Of a DNA stretch of 64,000 bases, positions 618 to 34,248 are shown piece by piece. The DNA comes from Tribonema minus (lineage: Eukaryota > Sar > Xanthophyceae > Tribonematales > Tribonemataceae). A program made the translations under genes and the position numbers. Where the stretch lies: assembly GCA_017506865.1 (NCBI GenBank), contig JAFCMP010000200.1, positions 1 to 64,000 of the forward strand. Direction: 5' to 3'. How positions within the stretch are numbered: the stretch's first letter is position 1; the number at the start of each line of letters is the position of its first letter. The notes beneath the pieces are model-generated. The model was not told the origin of the DNA and ran no database searches. It worked only from the letters and a program-made list of their open reading frames with translations.

Positions 618-1400
618 CCAACACCCTCGCGCTGGAGTGTTGCAACGAGTCTCGTTTTGTACTCATGCACTTGTATTCATGAAGAAAGGCCCCAAGGGGG
701 GGCGGGTATCCCGTGTTTCCTTAGGGGTGTGAAGCCCATGCAGCAACCCAGTTTGCAACCCAGTCTGCGCCGCGCACCTAAGGGCTCAGGCACTGGGCCA
801 TCCATTCGCGCTCATTTTGTACTGTGTCCCCAGGATTTGAATTTCAGGCAGCAACGCACTCTGCGCCGCGCCCTAAAAGCTTGAGCACTGAGCCACCCAT
901 TCGTGCTCACCTTGTACTGTGTCCAAAGGGTGTGAATTTCAAGTAGCAACGCAGTGTGCGCCGCGCCCCCCAAGAGTTTGCGCACCAGGCCATTCCTCCG
1001 CTCACCTTGTCAAGCCTCTGCGGTCACCCTAACACCCTCACGCTGAAGTGCCGCAACGAGGCTTGCTTTGTACGCATGCATAAAGAAAGGCCTCAAGGCC
1101 AGGAATCCTGTGTTTCCTAGGGTTTGAAGTCACAGCAGCAACCCCGCCTGCACCGCGCCCCAAGAGCTTAGGCCCTGGGCGTTCGCTCACCTTGTACTGC
1201 CGCTGCGCATCGCCGCACCCCTGACACCCTCACGCCGAAGTGCCGCAACGCGTCACCTTGTACTCATGGACTGGTATTCATAGACAAAGGGTCATGAGGG
1301 AGGCCGGGTGTCCCGTATGTTCCTAGGGTTTGAAGTCCACCGGTCTGCGCTGCGCCCCCAAGAAGGTGGGCACTGGCATTCGCTCACCTTGTACTGCCGC
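618..1400. repeat. degenerate tandem array of an exon-edge/intron unit
   Basis: About five diverged units repeat the region around the 5' splice site that ends exon 3 of the minus-strand SH2-TPR gene (near 1388). Each has a block with the order tttcctagggtttgaagt, then gcagcaac, then ctgcgccgcgcccc, then aagagctt, then a cactgggc-like piece, and ends in cgctcaccttgtactg. On the minus strand that last piece reads CAGTACAAG followed by GTGAGCG, an exon end plus donor. Copies of this edge lie near 810-825, 903-918, 993-1008, 1186-1202 and 1381-1397. A second sub-block (caccctcacgctgaagtgccg) recurs near 628, 1030 and 1220. Only the innermost copy adjoins clear coding sequence. The array is directly visible; duplication followed by decay is inference. 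Confidence 0.75.
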
Positions 1401-4325
1401 TGCGCGTCGCCCAGCTGCCCCAGCAGCTCCACGCACAGCGCGAGCTGGTCAGCAGCAGCGCTCATGTGCTCGCGGTAGCGCGCCCCCCCCTCCCCCCCCC
1501 CCCCCCCCCCGCCATGCTCGCCAGCTTCATGTTGGTGCTCGCCCAGTTGCCCAGCGCGCGCGCCTCCAAAACTTCAACTTCATCCGCGCACGCCGCGCCC
1601 AGGAGGCAGCGCGCCGCGCGCACGGTGCACGCAAACTCGCTGCACGCCGCCTCAAACTTGAGGCGCGCCGCCGCCGGCGGAGCGCTGCCGCCGCCGTGGC
1701 CGCTGCAGTTGAAGTTCGCGGCCTGGTCCAGGTGCACGCCCTCGCGCACGAGGCGGCAGCCCTGCTCCAGCATGCACTGCGGGGGAAGGGGGGGGGGGGG
1801 TGATGCATGAACGGTGCGCAGTTGGCGGCGTGCGGGGTGCCACAGTGCATTCCATCCATGTTGTCATGCGCCGGAATGAGCGAGACGAGAGACCAGGCAT
1901 GACGACAGAGTGCGCGAGCCCCCGCTTTTGCTGCATACCTGTAGGAACTGCGGTGACAAAACCTGTGATAATTCACTTCAACTACTGAAGCCCAGGTTGA
2001 TTGGAGCGTTGCTGTCCGACAAAATACCTCGCTGACTCACGAGAGTGATGAGCACTGCAGCGCCTGTTGAGCGCGGCAGCTAGCAGGGCACATAGAGGCC
2101 ACTCGGCTAAGTGGTGCAACGCAGTACTCGGCACTCATCAGCTGGCAAAAGAGCTGCTTTGGACGCGACAGACTGCCAGAGACTGCTGCTGCATGGCTCG
2201 ACGTATGTACTGCAGTAGCCTCTGCAGCACCCCGCCTTGAGGCAGTCGACGTTTACCTGCTCCTACCCTGAATGAGATGCATACCATGCCTACCCTCAGT
2301 CAAATACATACCCCCGAGGCTGTCAGCGCTCACCCGCTCCTCCTCCTTCGACGCACGCTCCGCTGCCGACGGCCCACCCAAAGACATACCTTCTCTACCT
2401 TGACTACTTGACGCACACACCTTCAGGCTTCCCTACCTCAACTTCTTGAGTCACACGCACCTTGAGGCTGTCGACGTCCACCTGCTCCTCCGCCAGCGCG
2501 GCCGTGAATCCCGCGTCCCCCCGCCAGCGCCGCGCCAGCTCCTGCCGCGGCCGCCGCTCCGCCATCAGCCCCAGCATGTGCGCGTAGTGGTCCAGCGCGT
2601 GCGCGCGGCGGCGGCAGCGCTCAGCCCCCCCCCCCTCCCCCAGCAGGCAGTACGACGCGACCTCGCCGTGCAGGCGCCAGCGCAGGTTGTCGCACTCGCC
2701 GCAGGGCAGGCCGTCGTCGCGCAGGCGCCGCGCGTGCCGCGCCGCAAGCGCGAGCGCGCGGCGGTACGAGCGCAGCGCCGCCTCCGGCTCGTGCGCCAGC
2801 AGCAGCGCTCCCTGCGGGGGGGGGGGAATGGCGTGGGGGGGGTGCGGGGGGGGGTTGAGCGAGGAGGGGAGAGGGGTTGAGGGATGGTGCTGTTGGTGAG
2901 CAAGTTAGCACGCGGCGGTATGTGTGGGGGGGGGGTTGAGTGATGGTGGGAGGGGGGGGGGGCTGAGCAATGGTGCTGTTGGGCGGGGGTGAGCAATGGT
3001 GATGTTGGTAAGCAAGTGAGCAAGCAGCGGGGGGCACCTCCTCAAGAGACAACAGCGCGATGGTGCCTCTGGTACTCAACGGCAAGCAAGCAGCAACGCC
3101 CCATGCCAAGCGGACGGTGGCAGTGATGTCGTCGGCAGCAAGGGCTGCAACGGGTGGACCGCTGGAAGGGCAGGCGCTCTGAGGGCATAGACGTACACGG
3201 ATGCTCAAGTGCCACGCGCACAGGCCTCAGACTCCACTATCAAGTCAGGACAGTAAGTAACCTCCCTACCTCATGCCCCAGCGCCTTGCACATGGTCAGC
3301 GGCTTGACCCTGTCCTCCTCCGCGCGGCCCGGCAGCAGCGCCGCCTCGATCACGCGCTCCAGCAGCTCCAGTGCGCGCGCGCGGTGCTCCTCGCTCACCG
3401 CCGCCGGCAGCTTGGCGTTGAGCGCGAGCGCCGCGGCGTCTTTCGCCTGGTCCAGCAACCGCTCCGAAACGGGCTCCGTGCGCTTGCCGCGCCACATCGG
3501 CGGGTGCGCGGGGAGCTCGCTCAGCGACACCTTTTTGGCGGCGGCCGCACCGCCGCCGCTGCTGCTGCCGCTCGCGCTCGGCTTGAGCGCGGGCGGCGCG
3601 CGCGGGAGGATGTCGCCGTCGTACTTGGGGGCGCTGGGGGGGGAGGGGTGGTACCCGTTGCCGGGGGCGGGGGGGGCAGCAGCAGCAGCGCCGGCGCTCA
3701 GCTCCAGCTCGCGCGCGCAGGCGTCGGCCAGGTGGCTGACGACGGCCTCGTGCAGCAGGTGCTCGTGCCGGTAGTGCTGCACGAAGTGCCGGAGAGTGGG
3801 CCAGGACTCCCGCTGGTCGTGGGGGGTGCGCGGAGCCTCATCGTATGTGTAGCCGGCCGCGCCGAGATTGACTATGAGGTGGTTGCTGATGGTGGAGGCG
3901 CTGCAGCCCGTGGGTATGCGCAGGATGTGGAAGCAGTCGGCTCGCGTGCTGCTGTGCCGCAGCAGAAATGATCCCGGGCGTCCCTCGCTGCTGAGCATCT
4001 GCTCGCAGTGAGAGCGGTCGGCATCAGCGTGAAACCAGGGCACGAGCTGGCCAGTGGGCTCGAAGAGGCTTCCTGTGGCCTTAGTCAACGCCACTGGAAA
4101 CGGACCGTATCGCTTTAGGTACGTCTCGAACTGCCTGAGAGCCAATTTCGACGGAGCGGCGTCCCCCCACATGGCGTATCGCAGCACGCGTTGAGCAGGC
4201 ACTCCATGATGATCGCCTTCGACTTCTGAGTATGCCCGTACGAACGCGTCCCAGGAGCACAGCTCCTCGCCGTGAGGGCACAGAGACCCCCAGAACCTGG
4301 TCGCATCCGCATCAATTGAGGACAT
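1388..4325 (-). CDS. SH2 domain protein with C-terminal TPR-like helices (3' end not found)
   Basis: Exons on the minus strand are 4325-3270, 2811-2461 and 1776-1388; all are joined in phase 0 with GT-AG sites. Exon 1 starts at an ATG giving MSSIDADATRFWGS. An acceptor-like CACAG just upstream means a further 5' exon is possible. After an EF-hand/linker-like helical stretch (LRQFETYLKRYGPF) comes an SH2 domain. It begins WFHADADRSHCEQML, has the phosphotyrosine-pocket strand PGSFLLRHS (the FLVRES position, with its Arg) and ends LRHFVQHYRHEHLLHEAV. A Ser/Gly/Ala linker follows. Helical repeats with TPR-like spacing fill the rest of exon 1 and exons 2 and 3 (for example LRSYRRALALAARHARRL and LALCVELLGQLGDAQRQYK). 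Exon 3 changes frame by one base inside a G-run at about 1489-1511, most likely a homopolymer length error. The likely role is an adaptor that reads phosphotyrosine; the partner is unknown. Confidence 0.75.
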
Positions 4326-7600: not shown

Positions 7601-10600
7601 GAGGCGTACTGCCGCGCGGCGTACCAGCTCGACGGCGCAGGGCCTTTCGCCGAGGTCAAGCCGCTGCCGCGCGGGTGGGACGCGGCCGCAGCAGCCGGCG
7701 GCAATGGCGGCAGCGGCGGCGGCAGCAGCGGCGACGGCGGCAGCGGCGATAACGATGGCGGCGTGCGCGCGCCGGCGGCGTTTCGGCTGGAGCTGGCGCA
7801 CCTGACGGAGGGAAATCACACGCTGGTGCTAAAGGCGCGCGATATGGGGGCAGCGTACGGCCCGCCCGTCACGCTGCGCTGGGTGGTGGACCTGTCGCGG
7901 CCGGAGACATACGTGACGCTGTCGCCGCCGGCGGTGACGTCCGCGGAGTTCGCCAACTTCACCTTTGCGTGCGCGCTGGGCGCGGGCGGCGCCGCGCCGC
8001 GCGGCGGCTGCGAGTACCAGTACCAGCTCCTGCACGAGCCGCTGCAGGCGCAGGACGACGGCCTGCCGTACCTCTACCCGCCGCCCGGCAGCACGTACCC
8101 GCTGCACGTCGCGCACACGGGCGACAACACCTGGTACCCCACCAAGAACCCCGTCACCATGTACAACATTGTCGAGGGGCACTACGTGCTGCGCGTGCGC
8201 GCGAGCGTGCCGGCAGCGCTCGCGCGCGGCAGCGGCGGCGGCGGCGGCAGTGGCGGCGGCTTCGTCGTCGACGCCGTGCCCGCGACCGTCGAGTGGACGC
8301 GCGACGCGACGCCGCCCACCGTATTCTGGACAAGCACGCCGGAGAGCGTCTCCCACCGCCGCGAGGCGCTCTTCACCTTTGACTGCAGCGATGGCGGCGG
8401 CGGCGGCGACGAGGACGCCACCACGGCGGCGGCGGCGGCGGCAGCGGCGGCGGCGGCGGCGGGCGGCGTGGCGGCGGCGGCGCAGGAGGCGGCGGGCGGG
8501 CAGGACGTGCTGGGGGGGCAGCGCTCCGCGTGCCGGTTCGAGGTGAGCCTGGACGGCGTGGCGTGGGTGGCGTCGCCGCGCTGGGCGCTGTTCGGCGGCG
8601 CACGCCTCGGCGCCGCGCCGCACGTGCTGCGCGTGCGCGCGACGGACGCCGCGGGCAACCGCTCTGCGCCCATCGCGCGCGTGTGGCGCGTCGACGCCGC
8701 GCTGCCGGACACGGCGCTCGTGGCGGCGCCCGCGGCGGTGACGGCGGCGACGTCCGCGCAGTTCGCGCTGCTCGACACGGTCGGCGGCGGCAGTGGCGGC
8801 GGCGGGCACTACGAGTGGCGGCTGGACGAGGCGCAGCACTGGCGCCGTGCCGCGCAGCCGCTGATCGAGGTCAGGGGGCTGAGCGAGGGGAGCCACAGCG
8901 TGACGATACGCGCGGTGCGCGGCGGCGGCGGCGGCGGCGGCGCGGACGCCGTGCCCGTGCGCTACGCGTGGACCGTCGACACGCGCGCGCCGGACACGTC
9001 CATCGTCGTGTACCCGAGCACGGTCACGCACCTGCGCAGCGCGATCCTTGTCTTCAGCGGCTCGGAGCCCGGCGCCACGTTCGAGTACCGCCTCGACGGC
9101 GGCGCGGAGACGGCGCTCAACGTCACCGCGGCGGCGGCGGCGGCAGCGCCTGCGGCAGGAGTGGCGGAGACGTGGCTGGCGCCGCCGGACAACACGAGCG
9201 TGCTGCACCTGTACGATTTGGCGGAGGGCGCGCACGTGCTGCGCGTGCGCGCGGTGGACGCCGCGGGCAACGCGGACGCGTCGCCTGCGGTGCACAAGTG
9301 GATTGTCGACCGCGCGGGGGTGTACGGGCCGCCGTCGATGCCCTCGGACGTGGTGGCGGGGGGCGGGGACCAGGTGAGCCATCCGTGCTGCTTCGTGGGG
9401 TGGTGGTGGCTAAGCACTGATGCCCTGCGACTGTGTTACTTCGTCTCTTAAAGTATAGGTATCTGGGCGAGTGCGGAGTAGCAGCTGCCGAGCGGCGACG
9501 GCGGCAGCGCCGTCAGCAAGATTTTGACGTTTTTCTGTACCATCTGCATGCTTCTCTCACATCTTCGCCATGCCCCTCGAGTGCCAATCACTCCAGACAA
9601 AGCCGAGCGTTAGCACGACCATGCCCTCACACTGTTCTTTCTGGTCACTGCGCGCCGCCAGGTGGCGAGCGTGGAGTGGCGGCCGCCCGGCGACGACGGC
9701 GGCGGCGCCATCAGCAAGTACTTGACACTACCTGTACCCGCAAGCCGCGTGCATTCCTCACATACACAACGCACCGCCATAGTGCCAATCGTACCGCATG
9801 TAACAAGCAACGTGAACGCTCTCGCGGTCTACTGCATGCCGCCAGTTCGCGAGCGTGGAGTGGCAGCGCCCCAGCGACGACGGCGGCGGCGCCATCAGCA
9901 AGTACTTGACATTTTCTGTGCCATCTGCATGCCCTTTGAGTGCCGATCAGTCTACGCAAGTCACGCATCGACACAAGAGCATGCCCTCACGGTGTTCTCT
10001 CTGGTCACCGCGTGCTGCCAGGTGGCGAGCGTGGAGTGGCAGCCGCCCAGCGACGACGGCGGCGGCGCCATCAGCAAGTACGTGGTCGTGGCGTCCACGG
10101 CGTACACGGACGTCAACGTCAACACCATCACCACCGTGTTGCCGAGCAGGCAGGGGCAGCCGCCGCCGACGCACACGGCGGTGTACGGCCTGACGAACGG
10201 CCTCGTGTACACGTTCATTGTCATTGCCGTCAACGCGTTTGGGTCGGGCAAGGCCAGCCTCGCGAGTAATCAGGTAAGTCTTGCGGTTGCAGTCAACAAG
10301 CAGCAGATCTTGAGGTGTCATTGGTGCTTGCGGGGTTGTGCGTGCATGGTTGCTAATACATAGTACAGTGCTGTGTGTGCGGGGAGTGTCAACGCGTTCG
10401 GGTCGGGCAAGGCCAGCCTCGCCGGCAATCAGGCGAGTCACGTTGTTTTCACGCTCACTGAGCAGCTTATTTCACGCTGCCGCTGGTGGTGACGCGCCTG
10501 TGCACGTGCGTGGCTGCTTGCGCCCCTGGTACGGTTCTGTGTGTGGGGGGGGGGGTGTCACCGCGCGCACCCCCACTGTTGAAGTTGACGCCCCCTCTGG

Positions 10601-13600
10601 GTGCTACCCGGACTGTACCCGCGGTGTACGGCCTCACGAACGGCCTCGTGTACACATTCATCGTCGTCGCCGTCAACGTGTTTAGGTCGGGCAAGGCGAG
10701 TCTTGCATGGTTGCAACGCGCAGCGAGCAGCACATCTACTGCGTTGTTACTGGTGCTGGGGCGCCTGTGCACGTGCGTGGTTGCGTCATCTACCTACTAC
10801 TTCTAGTACGATTCTGCATACCTGGGGGGAGGGGGGGGGGGGCGTCACCACGCACCCTTGTTGAGTTGACATACCCTTAGGGCTAGAGCTGGGGTAAGGT
10901 TCAGGATTAGGTTCAAGGGACATAGTCAAGGGTTAGGGTTAAGGGTTGGGGTTAAGATGAGGGTTAGCGACGTTCTCCATGTACCCCGCACATGCAGGTT
11001 CTCATGTACAACCCTACGGACCCCTGCGGCCTGTTGCGCAGCGGTAGGGTTAGTAATAGGATTAGGGCTAGGGTTAGGGTTTAGGGGTTAGGGTTAGGGT
11101 TAAGGGTTAGGATTAAGGTTCGGGTTAGCTTCATTCCATCAGTTTCTGACGCATTGTCGTCGTCTTCGCTCCCACTCTTGCAGGTCCTCATGTATGATCC
11201 CACGGACCCCTGCGGCCTGCTGTCGTGCAGTGGTCATGGCTCCTGCTTCCTGCGTGCGGACGCCATCGGCGAGCTCACGGGCTACTGCCACTGCCGACCG
11301 GGGTACGCCGGGCCCGACTGCTCCATTGAGGTGGCTGCGACGGAGGTGAGCAATCGCTCTTCAAAGTTTATGCCTTTGTGTAAAAACTTCAGCAGTGAAG
11401 TAGCGCTTTCGGTTTGAGATGATGGAGGACAGTTTGGGTTAGGGTTAGGGCTAGGCGTTCATGCTGATGCTTCAAACTCCCTGCCACTGCCGCACGGGGT
11501 ACGCCGGCCCGACTTCTCCATCCAAGTGGCCGCAACGGAGGTGAGCGTTGGGCCCTTTTACAACTTAACATGACGTAGCACTTCAAATGTGAAGTGTACA
11601 CATCACCAACCTCGAAGTGCTGCTGCGTGAGAAACGCTTTGACTTGAACCAGGGTGTGCCGGCCCTGACTGCTCCATCGAGGTGGCTGCGCCGGAGGTGA
11701 GCCCTGGGCATATAGAAACTTGAACATGACGTATCACTTCAACTGTGACGTGTATCATCTGGAGCACTGCTGCTTGAGAACCGGTTTGACTCGGACCGGG
11801 GTGTGCCGGCCCCGGTTGCTTCATTTAGGCGGCCGCGATGGAGATGAGCGATGCGCGTCATACTTCACAAGTGAAGCATCATATTGAGTGAAGTCGTTCT
11901 GCAAGTGAGAGGAAACTCTTTGGCGTTGATGCGCTACCTGAAGCGATTATGCAAGTATGCGGAATCTATCTTAGGGGTAAGGGTTAGGGTTAGGGTTAGG
12001 GTTAGGATGTGGCACCTCAAACAGATTGTCACTGCTGACCGGGGCATGCAGGGCTCAGCTTCTCCATTGAGGCGGCGAGTGGCAGGCACGCCATACTTCA
12101 ACTATGAGATTATGAAGTAACCCAGCAACCCTGTGTCGGATACAGGTTGCTTCTTTGATCAGTCCATATCTCTTTTGACAAGGGCGCAGCGTGACGGCGG
12201 CGGCGGCCAACGCAACGCACCCGCCGGCGAACACCTAACCCTAACCCTAACCCTAACCCTAATCATCTGCTGAGTGTTGTGCACAGCAAAGTCAACGCTC
12301 ATCGCTACAGACCCCCCCCCCCCCCCCTTCCCCCCTGCCCACGTGGCCCTGTTCTTGTTTGCGTAACCCCACTTCGACGGCCATTGCATCGTCTGCATAT
12401 ACAGTCGTACCACTTCCAAATCATACAGTCACTTCAAGAAGTGATCGGCAATGGGCATTGAGACTTTTGAGGCGTTCACAAAGACACATGTAGATTTCTG
12501 GTTGCAAGTCCATGGGCATCCACCATGTGGGCTTTTTCGCGCCCTGAGCGAGAATATATAAAAAGTACATGTTGTCACCGAGTGTGCCACCTGTGCGCCC
12601 CCCCCCCCCCCCTTCACAGGTGGCCCTGTACCCCTTCACGTGGAGGCTCTCTGCATCACTTCCACACACACTACTCCCAAAGCATATCCTTTACTTCAAG
12701 CACACGCCCCCCCCCCATTCCCCCCTTGCAGGTGGCTCTGTACCCCTCCGCGTGGGGCGACTGCAGCATGGAGTGTGGCGGCGGCGTGCGGCGCCGCGCC
12801 ATGGTGTGCGCGGAGTTCCGCCAGGGCGTCGCCGTCGGCAGCGTCGCCAACGCCACGCAGTGCATGCTCGTGCCCAGCGGCGGCAGCAGCGGCGGCGGCA
12901 GCGGCGCTGACGGCAACACCGCCGCCTCCTCCTCCTGGCTCACCACTGCCGCCGACCTCAGCAGCAGCAGCGGCGCCGGCGCCGGCGGCAACGCGAGCCG
13001 CCACAGCAGCGGCTTCGGCAGCAGCAGCAGTAGCAGCGCTCTAAATGATGACGGCGGCACGGACGACGCGGCGCCGCCCGGCGACGTGCAGACACACTCG
13101 GAGCAGGAGGAGGCGTGCCGCGAGGTGCCGTGCCTGAGCTCGTTCCTGCAGGTGTCGCTGACGCTCAGCGCGTTCTACGGCGACGCGTGCTTCACGGCGG
13201 ACGCGCAGCGCGCCTTTCTGAGCGGCCTCGCGCTGGAGATCGTGCAGGCGCTGCACATCACGCTTTCGCGCATTCGCGACATGAACGCCGCGCCCGCCGC
13301 GCGCCCGGACGAGATGGTGGTGAGCTTCATCGTCGCGCCGCCGTCGGGGCCCGCGGACCAGCCGATACGCGTGCTGCAGGAGCAGCTGAAGTTGCAGGTG
13401 AAGTTTGAGGTCACGTGTTTGAGGTCACGTACTTGGTGTAGGTGAGGGCGTCTGAGGTCATGCAGTACTTGATGTAGATGTGCGTGCCCATAAGAGAGCC
13501 GCAGGAGCAGTTAAAGTTGCAGGTGAGGTCGTGTGCTTGAGGTCACGTACTTGATGTAAATGTGTATGCCGATGCACGTGCTGCGGGGCAGCTGAAGGTG

Positions 13601-15939
13601 CCGGCGAAGTTTGACGATAATTTGATCTGCACTACAGAAACAAATTTTAGTATTTCATCTCAAGCATCTGCTAGACCTGTAGCAGGATCGACAGCAGTAC
13701 ATGTACTACATGTACACATGTGCGTGTGGATGTGTAGGTTGGCATCAAGTAGGTGATGACCAGCTGCGCAGGCAGAGCAGAGCACTTCCAGCAGATGTTG
13801 GAGTTTTGAAGCCAGTATCACTAGAGTTGATGCTTATTGTAGTCTTGGTTTTCGGGTACGTCATTACCGGTCGCCTATTTGTATGCATCGCCTCCTGCGG
13901 CGCAGACGCACACCTTCCCCATTTCGCTGTGCTGTTGCCGACAAATGCAGGCGAGCAGCGTCAGGTCTACCGCTACCCCTCAGCCATACATACCCCTCGT
14001 GGTTGTTGTCAGATCGGCATTGTAGGCGCGCCGTTGCTTCTGTCAGCAACTGATGCACACGCCTCACTGCCCCAGTCTGCTGCGCCGCCGCTGCTGCCAA
14101 ACCCTGAACCTCAGGTTCAGCAGGGTCCTACACGTACTTGCCTCATAGGCGGCACCGTCTTTGACAGCTTCTGATTCTGTTAAGAAACATTTCCCCTTAT
14201 CGCCCTGATCTGCTGTGCGGTTGCATCCAAATGCAGGCGAGCGGTGCCAACCCTAACCCTACCCCTACCCCTCACGTCACCCAGATGACATTCTGAGCAT
14301 TATTTCCTCTGCTCGCTTCTGATTCTGTGAAGACACATTGCTGATCGTTGCTGCTGCCGCCCACAGGTCAGCAGCGCCAACAGCAGCCTGCGCTCGCGCG
14401 GCACGTGGGCGCGCCTTGTTGTGCCCAGCTCCATAAGGGAGCAAGCCTCCGTCTACTTGCCGCAGAACCTACAGGTGAAATGAAATCGTTGTCTATAGAA
14501 GTATAATTTTGAACTTCGCCCTGGACCCATCCTGGTCCTAGGGCAAGAGCCTGGCAGGGCGAGCTGGATTAGGCGTGCATAACACACATGCAAAGTTCAG
14601 TGTCGAACAGGTAGGGCATCTGGCCCCCTTTCTCAAGAGCACTTCGCAGTGAATCCGTGCAGCGTCACCACCTTCTGTTGTTGAAGTTTTGTCTGCCCAA
14701 GTATTAACGTATGTACTCATAGACCGCTGCCCCCGGCCAGGTCCCCTTTGTGGCCCACAGAGGCATCACCCAGCTCCTTGTTGTCGACAGTTCATGCGTG
14801 TTTAGGGCTAGGGCTAGCGTTGAGCGCTGCCTACCGTGCTTTGTCGCTGCAGTTCGCTTCCTGACCTATGACGGCATCATCCTGCTCGCTGTGGTGGTCA
14901 GCGCGTGCGCGTCTGCGTGGAGGGACAGGCAGCAGCGTTGCTTGCAGGGTCAGCGTTAGGGTCGCCTGCTGTGCTGAGCAATGTTGCGGTGTCGCGTATC
15001 ATCAGGGTAAGGGGCGAGGGGGGTGATCACCCGAAGACTTGTGCACACAAATGGCTTCAATACCAACACCAGCGCCTGCTAGACCAATAGCGGCTAAACC
15101 TGCGCCGAACAAGTCTTACTGCCATCAGCATGATCACCACTTCCTCGACGGTTTACAGAGCCGTGCTCATCGCCGGTGCTGCCGCGCGCGCGCGCCGGCA
15201 GGTCCGCTTCCTGACTTCTGTCACGGTATAATCCTGCTCGCTATCGCGGGCAGCGCGCGCCTACTTGGTGTTGTTCAAACAATAGCCAGCCTTGTGATCA
15301 GGCGGGGGGAAGGGGGGGGGGTCAGAGTTGCCTACTGTACTGAGCCATGCCCATCGCCGCTACTGCCATACGCTCGCAGGTCCGCTTCCTGGCGTACGAC
15401 GTGATCATCCTGCTGGTGGTCGTCGGCAGCGCGTGCCTGCTGTGCGCGGGCTGGGGCGCGTGGACCTCGTCGCGGCGCCGTCGCGGCAAGCTGCTGCCCG
15501 GCTACTGCGACGTGGAAGACGCCGCCTCCGCCGCCGACGCTGACGCCGCCGCAGACGATGACGCCAGCAGCACCGCTCGGCAGGCGCAGCGCTGCGCCTC
15601 CGGCGTGCGCGGCGATAACTGCGACGCCAGCAGCAGCGACAGCAGCAGCGACGACGGCTCCGCGTCGGACGACGAATTGTATCGGTGGGGAGGGGATGAG
15701 GGGGGCGGCGGCGCGGCGCGGCGGCGCTGGTGCTGGCGGCTGCCCGTGGACTGGGAGCTGACGGCGCGGCTGCGCAGCGCGGACGCGCAGTCGTCGCGCG
15801 GCGGCGGCGGCGGCGACGGCGGCGGCGGCGCCGCTGCCGCCGGCGCCGACGGCTGTAGCGCGTCCATGGACGGCAGGCCGCATGAGAGCAGCGGCGGCAG
15901 CGGCGGTGCGGATCGTGATGGACCTGCTGCCGCCGCCGC

Positions 15940-15980
<41 letters not shown>

Positions 15981-16818: not shown

Positions 16819-17062
16819 TGTACTTTTTATTAATTCTCGCTCAGGGCGCGAAAAAGCCCAGAGGATTGGCATCTAGCTGCACGGAATCTACATGTCGTAT
16901 GACAGTCTGAAAGTGTCGTAATGACAAACCACTCAAACGCGGCCGCCGCCAAATGGCATCTCAGGATCCTCCCCTACGTCCTCCTCCATGTGCCCCCCCC
17001 CCTTGTACTTTTATTAATTTCGCTTCGCAAGGGGCGCGAAAAGCCCTTGTACTTTTTATTAA

Positions 17063-17083: not shown

Positions 17084-17160
17084 AGCCCAGATGATTGGCA
17101 TCTAGCTGTAAGGAATCTACATGTCGTATGACAGTCTGAAAGTGTCGCAACGACAACCAC

Positions 17161-18938
17161 TCAAACGCCGCCGCCGCCAAATGGCATCTCGGGGTCCTCC
17201 CCTACGTCCTCCTCCATGTGCCCCCCCCCCCTGGATTCTGCCATGTGTGTCATGACACGGCCAGAGTACGCCATGTGGAGCGCTGCCGACAGTGCCGAGC
17301 GTAAGCGCGCCAGGGCGATGCCCTTGAGAGCTTTAGGGCGCGCTCCTCCGGGCACTGACATCCTGCTGGCATACTCCGTCGCCACAGCCTCCAGCAGCTT
17401 CCGCCCCTGCTCCCCGATGCTGCCAAATGACCCTATTGCCAATGTGGCAAGTTTGTAGCAATTCTGATCATAATGACCAGAATAGTGGGTAGTCTTGGCG
17501 GCCTCTTGGTCGCGGCAGCATCGCTCGGGGTCTGCTGCAGTCTTCGCCGCCCGCGACGCCACCTGTGCCTCGAAGCAGGTAACGTCCACCATGAGCGGTA
17601 GGTGGCGTGTCGGGTCGTCGTAGCCGGTCACCGGGAAGGCGTCGGCAGGCAGCACGATGTCCATCCTGCGACTCCCCGGCGGCCCGGCGGACCCCAGAAA
17701 CGGCGTGTAGTCCTCGTCCACCAGTCCCGTTTTGAGGTATTGCCGCAGGAGGCGCTGCGTGGCCCTCTTGACGCTATTGTGGACAATGGTGTCGTGCGCC
17801 TTGACGCGTGGCGCTTGACACAGCCGTGCATGCAGGGTGCCGCCCGGCGACTTCCCGCACAGCTTGCAGCCTGCCGTCTGCTCCTCTACTCCGATGGCGC
17901 GTTTGACGGCCAGCTGCCAGGATAGGCCATCGAACGAAGCCGTTGTGGAGTACATGCGCTCGTTGAGGAATGCCATGCCGATCGAGTGCATGTGGCGCTG
18001 CGACCGGAATCGAGCAAGTGCTTGCGTGCGTTGCGTGCCCTGCGGCAGCTGTTGCAGGTCCGCCTCCACCTTATCTGCAAGCTCGGTAGCGACGGCATCT
18101 GCAAGCGCACTCTGATTGGGGCGCTTCAGGCTACACTGCAACTGCAGAGCACTGGCGTCAAGTACGCAAGCAGCATCCGCACCAGTGCCACCACCTGCTG
18201 TCGGCCGCAGCGGCGGCTGCTGCGTAGGTGGTTGCTGCTGCAGTGGCGTTAGCGCTGGTGGCAGTATATGTTCCAGCTTGTCACCTGTTGCTGCACGTAG
18301 AGATGTGGCAGCTGTGGCGATCGTCCGCATGAGGGGCAGGCGCGCCACCTCTGCTGCTGCTGCGCCTTGTAGCATTGCTGGTGTGGAACGCGCAGCGCCT
18401 GCATTGACGGCTGCCGCTGCTGCGTGCGCTGGTGCTGCAGCTGTGCCGCCTGCCGTTGCTGCTGCTGCCAGTGGTGTTGCTGCTGCCGCAGGTGTTGGTG
18501 CAGCACCTGCCGCATTGGCCGCTGCCACCGCCATTGCCGCTGTCGCAGCCGGCACGGTTGCGGCGCCGCCTGCCGACGCTGCTCCTGTTGCAGGTGCTGC
18601 AGCAGCCCTTAGGCTAGTAGGGCCTGTAGCAGCTGTGTTGCCTATGCCCGCAGCCGCTGCTGTTGATGCTGCAGTTAGTGATGCCGCCGAGGCCACTTGA
18701 GGTGCAACATGTGCTGCCGCTGCTGCAGCAGCCTCTGATGCTGGAGCAGCTGCTGCTGCCGCCGCTGCTGCTGCCGCCGGAGTAGTTGCGCCGTGCGCCG
18801 CCGCTGCTGCTGCTGCCGCTGGTGCCGCCTGTGCTGCCGCCGCGGCCCCTGATCCAGCGGCAGCTGCGTCGTGTGTTGCCGGAATGGCTGCGCCATAAGC
18901 GCGGCCAGCCGCTGATGCAGTTGCCGCTGCCGGAGCGG
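17161..18938 (-). pseudogene. LINE-like retrotransposon ORF, C-terminal zinc knuckle and restriction-like endonuclease domain
   Basis: Open minus-strand frame running to a stop at 17161. The first 250 or so residues are Ala-rich low complexity. The reverse-transcriptase core is absent, so the copy is 5'-truncated. The conserved part has a CCHC-type knuckle (CKLCGKSPGGTLHARLC, about 17827-17877), the pattern HDTIVHNSVKRATQRLL, then RRMDIVLPADAF and PLMVDVTCFEA (about 17570-17675). The two Asp-bearing strands match the PD-(D/E)XK-like endonuclease at the C terminus of LINEs of the R2/NeSL kind and of related algal elements. The end is EDVGEDPEMPFGGGGV. The apparent N terminus (MPIIWAFSRPERE) is the translated tail of the neighbouring copy, so it is not a real start. 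Confidence 0.75.
18340..18935. repeat. GCT/GCC trinucleotide-rich low-complexity tract
   Basis: Imperfect gctgctgccgctgct repeats extend over about 600 bases and encode the poly-Ala region of the LINE frame. They also explain the many open frames on both strands here, which I leave out as shadows. Confidence 0.7.
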
Positions 18939-19086
18939 TTGTACTTTTTAATTTTTCTCGCTCAGGGCGCGAAAAAGCCCAGATGATTGGCATCTAGCTG
19001 TAAGGAATCTACATGTCGTATGACAGTCTGAAAGTGTCGCAACGACAACCACTCAAACGCCGCCGCCGCCAAATGGCATCTTGGGG

Positions 19087-19950
19087 TACATGTTTAGGCA
19101 GTTGCAAGGAAGAGCGGGTTGTACCGGCACTTAGGGTTAGGGTTAGTGCACATCACAGCAGCACTCTTTGGCCCTGTGTAGCTGACCCATAAACAACTTT
19201 TGCAACAGGGACCAGACAGCAGCGTTCAATCTGCTCTTCAAACAGGCTTTAACAGGTCACACTAGCACGAGTTTGCCATCACACACGTGCGTTTGGGGTC
19301 GCAACAGGGGCCAGAATGGCAACAGACAACATGCACCTGTTGCATAGCACACAAGTGCAGTGCACAATGGCAAGGCAACATGCAACAGCATGTGCTGCTC
19401 TGCAACATGCTTTGCTGTTGGGCATGGTGACATAGTCGAACACTTGCCATCCTAAACTCAAAAAGACAATGCATGGATGGCGTTGAAATGATTACCACGC
19501 GTTGATACTGCAGTATTGCCAATCATCATTTCTCATCCGCCATAATTGCTGGCCACTCAAAGCTCTGTAGTGTAATCAGCAGCAAGCTCTGCATACTGCA
19601 ACAAACAACATAGGCCCTGGGATGGACACGCAATGCATTAAACACCCAGAGGGCGTGGAAAACACATGCGTCATAACACTTCCGGAGAACTTGCGAAAAT
19701 GTATGCATGTGTTATTTTTGTCCGTGTGAGCCATAGCCAGTGCAGACCCGCCTCTGTGGCACCAACTGCCACAACTTGGTTCCAGTCACGTTGAAATTCA
19801 CATGCGCACCGAAATGATTTCCCCCCTAAGAGTGGCAGCTAGAAGTTGATAGTTTGCTGTGTGTGGCCTGCCGCTTTTTGTCTCTGTCCCTGAATAACAC
19901 CACTTCAAGGCACGGCCTGTAAGTGAGTGATTCGCTTGCATACGATGCTG
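19087..19950. other. intergenic region, no gene seen
   Basis: Contains a short TTAGGG pair at about 19131-19147 and repeated tgcaacatgc/gcaacaggg pieces at 19200-19420, but no supportable coding sequence. The 3' UTR of the minus-strand TraB-family gene 1 probably lies in 19820-19950. Confidence 0.45.
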
Positions 19951-22795
19951 CTACTGCTGCGACGCCGCGGTTACCGGCTCCGCATCCCTGACGGTCTCCA
20001 CTGGACTCTCCGCGGAGTCCACGTCTCTGACTGCTGTCATGGTGTACCCGAGCTTCTGCACGAGGTGCTGCTGGACGTACGGCTGGCGCCCAGCATTGAT
20101 GTACAAATAGGCGCTTTCTCTCTGACACTCCTTCATGTAGTGCACCAGGGAGTCCACGGCGTACTCTGCCGGCTCCACGGTGGCGGCCGCATGGAGCTGA
20201 GCGTTGCCATGCTGCTGCGAGCTGTGGTGACGCTCGTCCGCTGCCACGCGATCGAATGCGGGCTTGCGCGGCCCTTCCTCCAGCTCTAGGCACGCCCTGA
20301 GCACGTTGTAGCTGCTGCCGAACGCGCCGGCGTTTATGGCGTCCGCCATGCGCAGCAGCGTCACGTGCAGGGGCCTGCCGACGTGCAGCACCGAAACGCC
20401 GTTACGGTGCGCCTCTTCAGCAAGAGGCTTAATAAGATCGTGCGGGAGGTGCGCTTCGCGCGGCCAGCACGTGCCGAACCCGTGCTTCCCCACCAGAATC
20501 CCTATGGCGGTGAGACTGTTCAGTAGGGGGGGCATGCCTTTCACGCCGTCTTTGTGCGGAACCGGCACCAGTCTCGGCACCGTACGCGATAGCTCCAAGA
20601 CGGCTCTCGCGTCCTCTTCACCCAGTGGCGACGGGTGGTTCACCATCTTTAGCAGCCGCGACACGTACTCTGCCTGGATGCTCCACGTGTTTGCATCCTC
20701 GGGCGTCGCCTTTGGTGCACTTCTGTCCGTGTCTTCCGCCTCAGGCTGAGGCGTCTGTGGTGACGGCTCACTGCCTGGTGCTGTCAGGATTCTGTAGTGG
20801 CCATTGACAATGGGTGTCTTGGGATCTTTGTCAACGGACCATTCGTGGTCAAAGGCCACCACCGCCGTCTGCACAACACGTGTACACCAGAGGCAGGGCT
20901 TCAGTAAATGTGTTGCCGATGTATGCGCCGTGTGTCACGCAAAGCGACCGTGCCAAAGGCAGCACAGAGCGCCTGCTGTACACATCACATAAAATGCACT
21001 TCCTCAAAGTATTTTGCGTTAATGTCACCGGACCACTCGTAATTAAAGGCCACCACCGCCGTCTGCGCAGCACACCAGGTGCGAGAGGCAGGGCTTCAGT
21101 GAGAGTGTTGCCGTTGGATGCGCTTGGTGTTACGCAAAGCAACCGTGCCAGAGGCAGCACAAAACGACTGCTGTACAGATCACATAGAAGTAGAATGTAC
21201 TTCAAAATGTACTTTGAATGCGGACGCACATAGCCATGTACTTGCTTGAGGTTGAAAAACTCATCTATCAACGCATACAAAGTTGTCACGACTTGTCATG
21301 ACTTGAAGTGCATTGCTGAAGGATGCATAGCATACTTCAACTCGACATATCATCTACCACGGCGCCAACTCCACTGTAGTTTGGTCAATCACCAGCGCCC
21401 GGCCACAACACAGGCAAGGCAAGCCGCCAATGTAACTTTTGCAAAGGAAATACTGGTGTGTTCATGATCCACAGCGAAGTCAAGCACTTGATGAAGACAA
21501 GCGATTTGTGCTGCAGGTTGCCCGCCAAAGTGCCTTTTTGCATGCAAGTCTGGACTGTTGCTACAGGTACTAACGTTAGGGAGGCACTTGTGTGTTTGTT
21601 GCTCGCTGCATACACTCAAAAGTCTGCAGGCCGGCTGAGTGCATTAGCTCAATGTGTTGCTGCGGCATGGGCGACTAGATGGTACTGCGTCAAAATAGCA
21701 GTGGAGGAGGTACAGTTATGTGACATTGGCAGCCGTTGTTGCTGATGCCTGAGCTACACAACTGCCGTACTTCAACAAGCTACACAACTGCCGTACTTCA
21801 ACAAGTGTGAAGCCTCCAGATACGTACCTTGTGGCTGTTGCCGTGCTCGTGAAGCTCCTGTGCCAACTTCAACCTGGCACCCTCACTGCAGGAACGCATC
21901 ACCAAAGCGCAGAGTGAGAGACAACATGGGCAAGCAAGCTTCCACGGAGAAATGTGATGGCAGCGTCGAAATCAGCGCATTTGACACGGGTGAAGAGTGC
22001 ACACCAGACACAAGCTTCAGTGCTGCTTTGTCACAACGCATGACACTACAATGCATGCTGCAGTGTTGCCGCAAAAACACTGCATGTCTTGCGCACGCCC
22101 CGTAAAACGCATCGATGTGAACGCATGTGTCCTCAGGCTGGGCTTGCGTTGCGGATGCTGTGAGACAGGCCATGCGTACATGCAGCAGAATACCTGTCCG
22201 AGCCGATGGTGACCACGTCGATGGTGTGGTTGCTGTTGGTGAAACGCAGCACTGGAGTTGCTCCGCCATTGGACCTGCGTAATAGTCACAACATCACCGG
22301 CAGCAGTGAGGCGCAGTCGTCGGCCTCGGGGATGCTGGTCGCTGGCACATTCTTCATGCGCCGCATTTTACAGCAAGAGGTATGCCGAGGAAGCGTGTAT
22401 GAGTATGCCTTTGATTGGCTGACACGCCGGAGCCCAGCTAACACGGAGCACACAAAACAACCCAGCCCGTGGCGCGAGCGTGAGCAATTGATGCAACGGT
22501 GGTGCCTCACTTACCCTGTCGCCCGTTTGACCCTGGCAGCTTCCGGGGCAGCGTGACACTTCGGCGCAGCGTGCGTTGCGTCCAGCAGACCCCCTGCTGT
22601 GCAAATTCCAGCAGTAGCGACCGCAGCAGGCCACAGGCGCGGGGACACCTGATGCTCTCGTGTCAAATTTGAAAGAGACGCCCGTGTCGGCGGCCGACCA
22701 AGTCCACGGATTGTAGAGCAGCTAGCAGTGAGTTGCATCGGCCTTTTAACGATCGCCGTGCGCTGCGCGCAGCATAGCAGGCGTGTCGACAGCAT
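19951..22795 (-). CDS. TraB-family protein, paralogue 1 (organelle-targeted, membrane-anchored)
   Basis: Four exons fit in phase: 22795-22515, 22274-22194, 21885-21828 and 20868-19951 (511 residues plus stop). Exon 1 gives a presequence free of acidic residues (MLSTRLLCCAQRTAIVKRPM) followed by a short Ala/Gly membrane segment (WPAAVATAGICTAGGLL). Exon 2 holds HTIDVVTIGSD, at the position of the TraB GTxHxS strand, which is poorly kept. Exons 3-4 read LAQELHEHGNSHK then TAVVAFDHEWSVD, matching the family's I..V.PD.V..E segment. The last exon continues with LIKPLAEEAHRNGVSVLHVGRP (residues aligned with paralogue 2 F-AAL-TARQANIPVLLGVRP) and a C-terminal EYAVDSLVHYMKE block. Family function is poorly known, with mitochondrial outer membrane or chloroplast roles reported for some members. 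Catalytic His and Glu positions look altered. Confidence 0.6.
20830..21207 (-). repeat. tandem duplication of the exon 4 acceptor of TraB gene 1
   Basis: Two copies of about 180 bp (20830-21009 and 21024-21207) contain the first 38-45 bases of exon 4, its acceptor and about 130 bases of intron. The shared text includes aaaggccaccaccgccgtctg, gaggcagggcttcagt and ctgctgtaca. The copy nearer the exon body (20830) is used, since only it continues into coding sequence. Confidence 0.85.
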
Positions 22796-25777: not shown

Positions 25778-26446
25778 ATGGCCTGCCGTGCTATTCGTTT
25801 GGTCCGACGATCTGGCGTGGACAGGCTAGGACACTGCTTTGCGGGAGCGGCATCGGCGCAAGCTGGAGTGTCGCAGTACCACAGCCTAGCTAGTCAGCGA
25901 CAGCCTGGCGCGATCGGAGCAGCGGGTGGCACCAGACGACGACCCTCAAATGCAGGCTGGTCACTGCAGCAGCAGCAGCGGAGAAGCCTGTTCATCCAGA
26001 CAGAGGACACACCCAACCCAAACAGCATCAAATTTCACCCCGGCCGGACCGTTCTGCCTGAGGATTACGGCACTGGCTTCTTCTGCACGAAGGGCGACGC
26101 GGATTCCAAGAGGAGCCCACTTGCTCGCAAGGTATTCGCGGAGATTGAGTACGTGAATGGCGTGTTTCTGGGCCGGGATTTCATCACCCTCACCAAGACC
26201 GACGAAATGAGCTGGAAGCTGGTGAGGCCCATGGCTCTGAGCGTGATCATGGACTTCTTTGCGGAGAACAAGCCGGTGATCACGGAGGCTCCCGTGGCGT
26301 CCGACACGGCGGCGCACGAGGACGATGACGAGGTTGTGGCCATGATCAAGGAGCTCATCGAGGAGCGCATCAGGTGTGACCTTTTTAGGGTTAGAGATAT
26401 AGGGTTTAAGGGTAGGGTCAGGGTTACGCATCCCACAGACCTTTTG

Positions 26447-26485
<39 letters not shown>

Positions 26486-27802
26486 GTTGACATGACGACG
26501 AGGTGGTGGCCATGATCAAGGAGCTCATCGAGGAGCGCATCAGGTGAGGCTCTTCCCGCAGACCTCTTTAGGGTTAGGGTTACATAGAGGTTAGAGGTAG
26601 CGTTAGGGTTAGGTTGACATGACGACGAGGTGGTGGCTATCATCAAGGAGCTCATTGAGGAGCGCATCAGGCGAGGCTTCTTGCAGACCTTCAGGGTTAG
26701 GGTTAGGGTTGAAAGTTAGGGTTATGTTGAGGAATGTAGCTCATGTTGAAGTGATAGTCAGCAGTCGAGACAGTTCAAGCGTGTGCGCTGTGGCCGCAGC
26801 TCTAGGTGGCAGTGCTTTCGCGCCCAGGCATCGAGACAGGTTGGCCGCGAGTTTGGTGCTGCCCACCTGCTGCATGAGCTGTTGGTGCCGTTCAAGCGCG
26901 TGCGCTATTGCTGCGGCTTTGGGAGGCAGTGCTATTACGCCAAAGTATCTTGAGTCCTGCCAGGTCGACATGCTGTTGGCAGTCTGCTTCGTCTGATTGT
27001 ATTTATGTTTTGAAGTGAACTTATGCGTGTTGGAGCTCTGTGTATGCTGCTCGAACACAACTGTTGAGGTCACGGTCGCTGTCGCCCTTTCATACTGTCG
27101 GCTCTCAACAGGCACTATTTTTCAAAGGCATGTGCGGCAGCAATTATTTCTATTTTATGCAGTAAGCGACCCTGTTCGATGAGCAGTTGTTTGCGGAAAT
27201 TGACACGCCTCCGAGAGCGCTGTCGTGGCCAGCTGCACTGGTGTACGGAGAGCACACCCCAGACTTGCGGCGTTGCAGAAGTAGGCAGGCCGGTACACAC
27301 TGCAAACGTCATTAATAGCCTGTGTTTGGTATACCCTGCATGCAATGGCAGCTCACGGACTCTGTCTCTGTCCTAATGAAAGGAAGAGTCAATCCTGGGA
27401 ACTACAGTCATTTTTGCACCCATGCTCGAATCGGGAGGGACTGCTGCAGCCCTGCACCGCGGTTTCATGGCGTATGCAATACTGATGTGAGAGCTGTCAT
27501 GCACCTACCTACCTACCTTTGTCCGCAGGCCGTCTGTGCAAGACGATGGCGGCGACATCTTCTTCAAGGGCTTCGACAGGGACCTGGGTCTCGTCAAGCT
27601 GCAGCTGGCGGGCTCCTGCAAGGGCTGCCCCAGCAGCAGCGTGACGCTCAAGCAGGGCGTGGAGGCCATGCTGATGCACTACGTGCCGGAGGTGCAGGGC
27701 ATTCAGGAGATCGTCGACGACGAGCTGCAGGAGCTCAATCAGAAGGAGGCCACGTCGCTCGAGGCGAAGCTCGCCAAGGCGGGCATACCGTACGCCGACT
27801 GA
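25778..27802 (+). CDS. NFU1: NFU1-type iron-sulfur cluster scaffold, mitochondrial
   Basis: Exons 25778-26373 and 27529-27802 join across a split Arg codon ([12 protein letters not shown]) to give 289 residues. The Arg/Ser/Gln-rich N terminus ([18 protein letters not shown]) looks like a mitochondrial presequence. The Nfu N-domain follows, with [22 protein letters not shown]-like [13 protein letters not shown] and [18 protein letters not shown]. The C-domain in exon 2 carries [12 protein letters not shown] and the cluster-binding CxxC in [18 protein letters not shown]. The protein would assemble or transfer Fe-S clusters to mitochondrial apoproteins such as lipoate synthase and respiratory complexes; this is family knowledge. 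The intron after exon 1 holds two extra copies of the exon end. Confidence 0.92.
26313..26730 (+). repeat. NFU1: triplicated NFU1 exon 1 end with TTAGGG spacers
   Basis: The last 50-60 bases of exon 1 plus donor (26316-26380) recur at about 26490-26552 and 26614-26680. All read gacgacgaggtggtggc-like, then atcaaggagctcat, then gaggagcgcatcag. Donors are gtgtga, gtgagg and gcgagg respectively. Each copy is followed by a stretch of TTAGGG repeats (26380-26487, 26563-26612, 26694-26722). The second copy has the best donor consensus. Splicing from it would leave the frame to be resolved through repeat sequence. Confidence 0.9.
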
Positions 27803-31500: not shown

Positions 31501-34248
31501 CAGCTCACGTGGTTCGTGGCAGCGCTCGCCCTGGACGCCGCGCACACACACAACAGCAGCAGCAATCCGCACCCCCCCTCCCCCTCCCCCCGTGCACCAC
31601 CCCCTGGCCGCCCAGCCCCCCCCCCACCGCACGCCTCCGCAAGCGGGCGGTTTCGGCACTTACGGTTTCATGGAGCGCTGGTACCTGCCCGCGCTGCTGT
31701 CCCGCGGCGGCAAGGCGGTGACTCTCCTTGCAGCGGCGGCGCTGGTGGCGTGCGGCGGCGTCGGCGCGCGGCGCATGCCGCTGGGGCTGGAGCCGCAGCT
31801 GGCGGCGCCACTGGACTCGCCGCTGCAGGCGTACTACCGCGACCAGTTCGCGCTGGGGGAGGCGGGGCCGCCGGCGTACATTGTGAGTGCTGTGTCGTTG
31901 TGAGCGTCGCCAACCCTTTCTCCTTGAAGCAGAATTTTCAAGATGTGTTCAGGCAGCATTAGCTCGTTGATATTCGTTGAATCCTTGTTTCAGAACAGCC
32001 ATTGTGAGTGAGGCGTACCACCGCGATCAGTTCGTGCTGGAAGAGGCGGGGCCCCCGACGTACATTGTGAGTGTCGCCAACACCTTTTTTCTTGAAGAAG
32101 TTTCTTGTCTGAAAAAAGATGCATGCTGGCAGCATCTGCTCGTGAGCCTTTGCTACAGAAGATCCCCACTGCGAGCGAGGCAGACTGCTGCGGCCATACA
32201 TACATCAGGGTGGGACGTCTGCAGGCGTGGTCTCATGGTGGGGAGGCACACGCGACCACAGTTCCTAGAAGCCATTTCCCCAACGCAGCCGCCCCCTTTA
32301 CCCCCCCCCGTATTCCCCCCCCCCCCCCCCCCCCCCCCCGGCCCCTTCTCAACCTCCAGGTGCTGACGGACATCCACTACTTCCAGGTGCTGGTGAACGC
32401 CACGCGCGGCGGGCGCAGGTCAACGACCTCTATATATATACTCCACTCCACATAGGCTATAGCACACACGACCACAGCTCCTGCAAGTCATTTACTTCTA
32501 TCAAGCGCAGCAGCCCCCCCCTCCCCCCCCCCCCCTCCCCCCCACTTCGCACCTGCCCCCCCCCCCCAACCTCCAGGTGCTGACGGACATCGACTTCTTC
32601 CAGGTGCTGGTGAACGCCACGCACACACAACCACAGCTCGCTCCCGAAGTCACTTGTCAATCCTCGAACCCTTACCCCCCCCCTACCCCCCTTTCCCTTT
32701 TTAACTCCCCCCCCCAACCTCCAGGTGCTGACGGACATCGACTACTTCCAGGTGCTGGTGAACGTGACGCGGCGCGCGCAGGTCAACGACCTTGTCACCG
32801 CCGTCTCCCAGCTCACCCCCTACGTGCAGCCGCCCATCTACAGCTGGCTCGACGCGATGACGGCATGGATAGCGCAGCGCGACGCCCTCTCTGGCAGCGA
32901 CTGCCCGCCGCAGATCGACATTGCGACGCGCGAAGACTTTTCCGCGATGCTCGGAACGTTCCTCGCGATCCCCATCACGAGCCAGTGCTGCCAGAGCCAC
33001 GGGATCTGCGGCGCGCAGTTCAAGTCTGATGTTGAAGTTGACGCCGCCGCAGGTGAAGTCCGCGCGAGCCGGATGCGCTTCAACATGCGCCCGCTGCGCT
33101 CGCAGCGCGACTTTGTCAACAGCTTCTGGTACCTGCAGCGGGCGGTGAGCGCTGCTGCGGATGGCATTGAGGAGGCGTACCCGGGGCAGCGGCGCGCGGG
33201 GGGCGCGGGGAATCTGGCCTTCCCGTACTCCATCTACATGGTGTACTACGAGCAGTACGCGTACATTCAGGCGGTGGCGGTGCAGGCGAGTGCGTTGATG
33301 GTGTTGTGTGTGTTGAAGCATCAATGGCTGTGTATATGGCGACTTGGAACCTGGTTTGCTCAGTGGCTATTGCAACTTGGAAATTGGTTTGCTGCATGCC
33401 TATGCCCCCCCCCCCTTCCCCACCCCTCACCTGCAGCACATGTCCACCATGATGCACGTACTTCAAGGTAGCTTATCTGACACGGCGGCAACACCATCCG
33501 TAACATCATGTCATGTCACCACAATTGCCTGCTCAACTCTAGCGCGATGGATGCTAGGTCAAAAAGCATTATGGCAGTCGCCGCTCACACCACCAATGCA
33601 CAATACACCGTGACTGACCTTCAACCAACGCGAGCCTAACAATTTCCTTGTTTGTTTGCCCTGTTGCTGCAGGGCGTGCTTCTGTCATTAGCGGTCGTCT
33701 TCCTCATAGTCCTCGCGCTACTGGGCCCCTATACAGCGGCCATTGTGACCCTGCTGGAGCTGGCCATGGTCACCAGCATCGTGGGGGTCCTCTGGCTGTG
33801 GGGCGCGATAGACACGCGCGCCCCCTTCCCCGTCAGCGTCAACGCCGTCAGCGTCTGCAACCTCATCATGGCGGTAGGTCTCAGCGTCGAGTTCCTGCTG
33901 CACGTGGCGCACGCCTTCGCGCACGCGCGCGGAACTCGCGAAGAACGCGCCGCGCGCGCGCTCCGCGGAACGGGCCGCAGCGTGTTCTTCGGCATCACGC
34001 TGACCAAGCTCGTGGGGGTCTTTGTGCTGGCGTTCGCGCCCTCGCAGCTGTTCCGCCTGTACTACTTCCGCCAGTACATGAGCATAGTGGCGGTGGGGGC
34101 GTTCGTGGGCCTCGCGGTTCTGCCTGTGGTGCTCTCGTTGATAGGCCCCGCTGAAGGCGGCGGCGGTGGCGGCGATGAAGGGGGCGATGGGGGGGTCAAG
34201 CAGCCGCTGCTGTTTGAGGAGCCAGAGGCAGAGCGGCAATCCCTGTAG
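28521..34248 (+). CDS. NPC1-like sterol-sensing-domain transporter of the RND superfamily
   Basis: Exons 28521-28658, 28969-29052, 29547-31002, 31424-31882, 32725-33285 and 33673-34248 give about 1,090 residues. Exon 1 starts with TM1 (MLREWLRRHGRNVASRPRAT). NPC1 signatures follow in order: FFDAAFTPFFRINQ, VTLDDLCFKPI, CLIESPAQYW, LIITVLLNNF, the sterol-sensing domain with VVPFLALAIGVDNEFLV, EALANVGPGILAAGACEVITF, LPLGLEP-like second lumenal start, IYSWLDAMTAWI, FPYSIYMVYYEQYAYI, NAVSVCNLIMAVGLSVEFLLH, and TLTKLVGVFVLAFAPSQLF. The N-terminal cholesterol-binding domain of animal NPC1 is absent. A Gly/Ala-rich insert of about 100 residues lies inside the sterol-sensing region. In exon 4 the frame changes by one base within a C-run at about 31560-31625, probably a homopolymer length error. 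The last intron has a GC donor. It probably moves sterol or lipid at an internal membrane. Confidence 0.85.
31840..32075 (+). repeat. duplicated NPC1-like exon 4 donor edge
   Basis: The exon end at about 31838-31890 (taccgcgaccagttcgcgctg, then ggcggggccgccggcgtacatt and gtgagtg) has a second copy at about 32018-32073 with the same donor gtgagtg. Intronic text (cgccaaccctttctccttgaag versus cgccaacaccttttttcttgaag) is duplicated too. Confidence 0.85.
32316..32790 (+). repeat. three tandem NPC1-like exon 5 acceptors with poly-C tracts
   Basis: The exon edge caacctccag, then gtgctgacggacatcga and cttccaggtgctggtgaac, occurs at about 32354-32430, 32568-32625 and 32716-32780. A long C-run precedes each (about 24 C near 32316-32340, then 32513-32567, then 32708-32715). 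The text after copy 1 (gcgcaggtcaacgacctc) matches the true exon. Only the third copy continues into full coding sequence. Confidence 0.9.

Follow-up and report, generated by a model that had tools for sequence, protein, structure and literature searches.

The 64,000-bp stretch of DNA analyzed here (the window: positions 1-64000 of contig C200, from a eukaryotic genome of 158 Mb and 554 contigs) raises a question about how introns grow. Next to many of its exons, the edge of the exon, its splice site and part of the intron recur in tandem within the intron, and an initial annotation read from the letters alone proposed that a genome-wide process targets splice junctions in this way. We asked whether these arrays are real and general, and whether their position at splice junctions points to a process directed at them. 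Our results confirm that the arrays are real and frequent, and identify them as a known kind of event, tandem genomic duplication within genes, here taking a genome-wide form with multiple copies. The explanation we favor, with a probability of about 0.55, is recurrent local tandem duplication in genes combined with purifying selection.

Exon-edge arrays in the window

Comparison of the window with itself yielded 51 local pairs of similar segments less than 3 kb apart, and 45 of these 51 pairs are direct repeats. The 13 splice sites named in the initial annotation all fall within direct local repeats; two of these sites, the acceptors of the TSP1 exon and of exon 5, are weak. Exon frames and splice sites of the named junctions were checked by reading the sequence and through domain searches, which bore out the labels SH2, NPC1/sterol-sensing, Nfu_N, fn3 and TSP1. 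The label TraB-1 was not upheld, as the open reading frame that carried it (19954-20874) has no Pfam match; a Pfam search matched TraB to the open reading frame at 42016-42882.

On the reverse strand, self-matches define a donor-side array in the SH2-domain gene (617..1411), with the functional donor near 1387 and the exon end copied together with its GTGAGC at about 1190, 1010, 905 and 810. The SH2 match lies in the exon upstream of this array, and the junction was both read from the sequence and predicted by a gene finder. The same strand holds a donor-side copy absent from the initial list (2231..2500), where the edge of the exon at 2457-2811 recurs in the intron at a distance of 225 bp, with 33 exon bases and a score of 45.

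A receptor-like gene on the forward strand carries arrays at several of its junctions. Its FN3 exon is preceded by an acceptor-side array supported by self-matches (9466..10084, functional acceptor 10021/10022), with three extra copies that take in about 63 bp of exon at steps of about 180-200 bp; a domain search places the start of the FN3 domain within the last copy. The same exon is followed by a donor-side array (10178..10706, functional donor 10273/10274), identified through self-matches and edge-copy tests, with two copies 159 and 443 bp further on. The next exon, labelled EGF in the initial annotation and here considered putative, presents an acceptor-side duplication (10985..11222, functional acceptor 11183/11184; 39 exon bases aligned at 85%) and a donor-side array of four extra copies recovered as self-matches (11285..12076, functional donor 11345/11346). 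The exon containing the TSP1 domain (exon 4 of the initial annotation) has a donor-side array (13361..13614, functional donor 13397/13398) and, by self-comparison, a weak acceptor-side duplication (12596..12755, functional acceptor 12731/12732) whose two copies take in a C run; no copy of this acceptor reaches a score of 40 when the exon edge is compared with its own intron. Also weak is the array at the exon 5 acceptor (13926..14380), which precedes an exon that begins at 14367: the pair detected by self-comparison joins two intronic copies rather than the exon and a copy, and the edge-versus-own-intron test finds no copy at score 40. A further acceptor-side array precedes the exon labelled TM (14852..15441, functional acceptor 15379/15380).

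The putative TraB-1 gene, on the reverse strand, has an acceptor-side duplication with a 195-bp step (20829..21189) and an acceptor, read by eye, at about 20870. On the forward strand, the NFU1-like gene, which yields an Nfu_N match, carries a donor-side array (26324..26722, functional donor 26373/26374) whose two extra copies lie 170 and 297 bp away, and self-comparison reveals in the same gene an intron-internal tandem duplication away from the junction (26773..26949, 117-bp step). The NPC1-like gene, also on the forward strand, combines a donor-side duplication seen in self-matches and edge-copy tests (31827..32073, functional donor 31882/31883), downstream of an exon with NPC1/sterol-sensing domains, with an acceptor-side array of two extra copies (32246..32800, functional acceptor 32724/32725). 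Positions 34000-64000 of the window contain fewer local repeats than the first half and have a lower G+C content. Two segments there (48218-48640 and 49029-49354) are repeated about 720-810 bp apart, with their order kept and an identity of 75-78%, and seem to stem from a larger and older duplication.

The initial annotation also remarked that the functional copy comes last in acceptor-side arrays and first in donor-side arrays. The pattern holds, but it reflects no special rule: when a duplicated unit spans an exon edge, the intron side is the only place where extra copies can be left.

Frequency and locus specificity across the genome

To determine how common the arrays are, we compared 75 bp of exon edge with its own intron, requiring a local score of at least 40. 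The test was applied to 40 introns outside the window whose borders were defined by homology to kinesin and CCT proteins; one kinesin exon was also compared with PDB, solely as a look at its homology. These introns were picked by hand for good scores, and poorer introns and gaps were dropped before counting. An edge copy was found at 12 of the 80 junctions in this homology set and at 9 of the 18 junctions of nine introns in the window, whereas exon edges compared with introns of other genes matched in 1 of 588 trials.

A third set, obtained with a self-trained gene finder, comprises 173 junctions whose predicted exons are 150 bp or longer; 92 of these junctions lie in gene-family loci, 48 in ten arbitrary 10-kb regions and 33 in the window. 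The gene finder reproduced 33/40 donors and 35/40 acceptors of the homology set exactly, the same set having seeded its splice models. Edge copies lie no more than 900 bp away at 34 of the 173 junctions, and 31 of these 34 copies abut the splice site. Samples totaling about 261 kb, window included, support the occurrence of such arrays throughout the genome, and the observation that the arrays occur in unrelated genes was right. The clearest case is a CCT chaperonin gene (L033), in which seven copies of the edge of the preceding exon can be detected within a 941-bp intron, most of them with the donor site, in agreement with the proposal that the arrays lengthen introns; the predicted donor at this locus is 5 bp off, making exon-part lengths there about 5 bp too long. 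An assembly artifact would be an unlikely source of the arrays, because the copies match the exon at 76-100% (mean 88%, 36 pairs) and the spacers between copies differ.

The presence of repeats in many introns might suggest introner-like mobile elements inserted at exon edges. As in introners (as outlined in PMC9860276), many introns of one genome have repeat-like content, but introners are dispersed copies of one element, whereas each array here is specific to its own junction. When three array units were searched against the whole 158-Mb genome, the FN3 acceptor unit (9466..10084) matched a single place, the putative EGF exon donor unit (11285..12076) was specific to its locus, and so was the NPC1-like acceptor unit (32246..32800) except for its C-rich stretch. 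Own-locus matches rule out a mobile or introner family for these three units, and neither they nor the foreign-intron trials, with their single match, reveal a similar element in many unrelated introns. Overall, we consider a mobile origin of the arrays extremely improbable.

The window does hold a dispersed repeat (16816-17233 and 18937-19087), but it is of another nature: a young element, here in tandem, with 45 matches listed across the genome (417 first-look candidates, 40 scored), most of those listed being identical. Fragments that by eye resemble the end of this repeat occur in a receptor intron (12532-12556) and in intergenic DNA (34757-34785).

Two short motifs were also recorded. Interstitial TTAGGG is found in the window at 26376-26720, 10880-11130, 11975-12006 and 12234-12262, as well as at many sampled loci. 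Runs of at least two exact units number 41 in 261,364 bp, with 36 in predicted introns, 5 in intergenic DNA and none in predicted exons. Telomere-linked break repair was considered in this context and rejected, since 9 of the 36 intronic runs fall in arrays, which cover 20% of intron bases, indicating no link. The 7-mer TTGAAGT/ACTTCAA occurs 246 times on both strands of the window and loci L001-L033, against 21 expected from dinucleotide composition (11.7-fold); its density per kb is 1.33 in introns, 0.58 in intergenic DNA and 0.29 in exons, with no strong strand bias. The genome also gave 92 matches to chlorophyll a/b-binding exons, which, together with splice signals resembling those of Chlamydomonas, were a tentative hint of a flagellated green alga.

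Placement of the duplications and divergence of the copies

The arrays could arise from a process aimed at, or strongly favored at, exon-intron junctions, such as breaks or pausing during transcription. In the homology set, copies are seen in 11/78 exon-edge windows, 25/149 windows within 150 bp of an intron end, 31/273 mid-intron windows and 0/78 windows of exon bases 75-150 bp from the junction. The near/mid ratio of 1.55 (bootstrap interval 0.74-3.8; the edge/mid bootstrap is undefined) represents no significant excess and argues against targeting. The predicted set, with one intron per junction, gives 28/143 at the exon edge, about 7.2% of 774 in mid-intron and 2/138 for exon bases 75-150 bp from the junction. 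The resulting ratios, 2.7 for edge/mid (1.2-4.5) and 2.3 for the first 150 bp of intron over mid-intron (1.2-3.8), speak for targeting, although near-exon rates may be inflated by exon-like copies that the gene finder mistook for exons. The junction excess is consequently modest at most, and these rates do not establish the targeting put forward in the initial annotation.

Several non-crossing arrays sit close to a junction, as a targeted process would lead us to expect. Against it, there are clear intron-internal arrays, and step size does not change away from junctions (medians of 186 and 188 bp at junctions and elsewhere, KS p 0.32); steps to the first copy range from 91 to 291 bp, with a median of about 173 bp and one outlier of 710. 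In a simulation with uniform placement, in which wholly exonic events are lost, exons are constrained and detection follows that of the real data, 1011 of 2080 detected duplications (49%) cross a junction; among real arrays, 14 of about 21, counted by hand, do so. The simulated proportion and the similarity of steps together indicate that most of the pattern can be attributed to geometry and selection.

Two observations are only partly explained by the duplication and selection model, and both lend weight to targeting. The duplicated unit takes in little exon sequence (median 60 bp, quartiles 46-70 bp, 31 abutting copies): its exon part exceeds 75 bp in 7 of the 31 copies, compared to 54% in the simulation; either longer exon copies were purged as better splicing competitors or the initiating lesions are intronic. 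Repeat coverage is about 3.2-fold (2.0-9.4) higher in introns than in predicted intergenic DNA, and 2.8-fold, with a lower bound of 1.2, in the ten arbitrary regions, although gene-finder errors could inflate this excess. A uniform neutral process would yield neither feature, and they count against the favored explanation together with the 2.3-2.7-fold enrichment that predicted genes show at exon edges and in the adjoining 150 bp of intron. On balance, we regard a junction-targeted process as a rather doubtful alternative. Similarly doubtful is a wave of duplication with a true preference for junctions that built a sizeable share of the introns from their own exon edges, leaving arrays at roughly one junction in five with an exon part of roughly 40-70 bp.

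A different process, local template switching or gene conversion, would copy pieces of exon edge into the intron, or refresh them from the exon, while the spacers diverge. Exon parts are indeed more similar than spacers, with mean identities of 0.880 versus 0.744 in 36 exon-copy pairs and 0.806 versus 0.725 in 25 copy-copy pairs, given a baseline of 0.68 for unrelated spacers. The gap is wider than in neutral simulation (0.892/0.842 for exon-copy and 0.876/0.860 for copy-copy pairs), which counts against simple tandem duplication, and the exon part is the more similar one in 33/36 and 21/25 pairs, where simulated fractions are 0.80 and 0.59. At loci L025 and L026, pairs have exon parts that are 0.93-0.95 alike between flanks that look unrelated; one copy end at L025 shares GTGCGC, and the copies at L033 show mosaic serine codons. 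Seeding the search from the intron side, however, reverses the bias: 21 junctions then give mean identities of 0.71 for exon and 0.77 for intron, as opposed to 0.86 and 0.66 at the 32 junctions of the exon-seeded search, and in ten pairs recognized from both sides the gap is small. It follows that part of the gap stems from the choice of seed. The regular steps also favor tandem duplication, so that template switching or conversion as the source of the arrays appears unlikely, even if a contribution from either is possible.

The divergence of the copies bears on whether they are retained for a function, as decoy or alternative splice sites or as poison exons. Differences between exon and copy fall at codon positions 1, 2 and 3 in 51, 61 and 124 instances (43 copies), and all 15 indels in the copies are frameshifting; the L033 copies show no third-position excess. 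The bias towards position 3 and the frameshifts are what one would expect of copies that drift freely and of exons that change mainly at third positions. Coding constraint on the copies was accordingly rejected, as 15/15 indels shift the frame and substitutions affect all codon positions, so they do not behave as functional alternative exons; the 43 copies show evidence neither of coding function nor of purging. As the initial annotation noted, many copies keep their splice dinucleotide: GT in 17 of 26 donor copies and AG in 14 of 17 acceptor copies, with some copies at L026 having AG before and GT after. This retention (31/43) might speak for function, but it is about what drift alone leaves. 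Copy number and spacing vary freely and neither reading frame nor codons are constrained, which makes retention for function very unlikely.

The notion that copies decay with distance holds in part. At L027, to the contrary, a copy at a distance of 487 bp agrees with the exon at 45/45 aligned bases, and copies closer by are less similar. Identity among non-exonic pairs is most often 70-80%, and of those pairs that span at least 60 bp only 4/93 reach at least 90%; on this account most events look old, and array-making does not look ongoing. Microhomology at duplication ends was set aside as a signature, with five clean young duplications among 229 pairs (end overlaps of 0, 1, 2 and 5 bp and one 9-bp gap) being too few.

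Origin of the arrays and relation to known duplications

Recurrent tandem duplication under purifying selection would account for the directly observed arrays, step sizes, copy drift and, for three units, locus specificity in the following way. Short local tandem duplications, possibly produced by repair or replication slippage, would recur within gene bodies. Those falling wholly inside an exon would be removed by purifying selection, and those inside an intron or across one exon edge would be tolerated. When the unit crosses an edge, the outer copy would preserve the exon and its splice site, and the surplus would fall in the intron and drift as non-coding DNA. Repeated rounds, together with exchange between repeats, could then generate arrays of two to seven copies and longer introns. 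The modest excess at junctions may reflect a mutational bias, or mostly old events dating from a time of shorter introns, when more duplications would have crossed or neighbored a junction, producing an excess in the absence of targeting.

Tandem duplication within genes has precedents. In the potato RdRp gene, one tandem duplication across an intron-exon boundary is described as the origin of a new intron (PMC4974935). The arrays appear to resemble the first step of that case: they are direct repeats, head-to-tail copies of a local segment; the duplication crosses the boundary, as seen in the abutting edge copies at 31/173 junctions; the exonic sequence of the upstream copy ends inside the intron; and the parent boundary supplies the splice signals. 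The potato case, as described, concerns a new intron formed by a single event in a single gene, whereas in Tribonema many junctions are involved on both donor and acceptor sides, with arrays that reach seven copies and enlarge existing introns. A review that reports duplication within genes as prevalent also outlines the AGGT tandem genomic duplication model of intron gain (PMC3443670, citing Hellsten 2011 and Gao and Lynch 2009). Duplicated segments provide GT and AG sites in that model as they do here, but the model turns a duplicated exonic AGGT segment into an intron, while the unit described here crosses an existing junction. A limited look at the literature found no genome-wide account of junction-crossing arrays, which is weak evidence of absence.

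For genome annotation, the arrays are a warning, since several of the copies lying in introns were taken for exons by the gene finder. Two questions lend themselves to testing: why the exon part is so short, and why introns are richer in repeats than intergenic DNA. If the pattern is genome-wide, the introns of this organism would constitute a record of local duplications and a datable natural experiment on intron growth, one that would show how splicing copes with several near-identical sites in series and with what frequency duplications across a junction could give rise to new introns.
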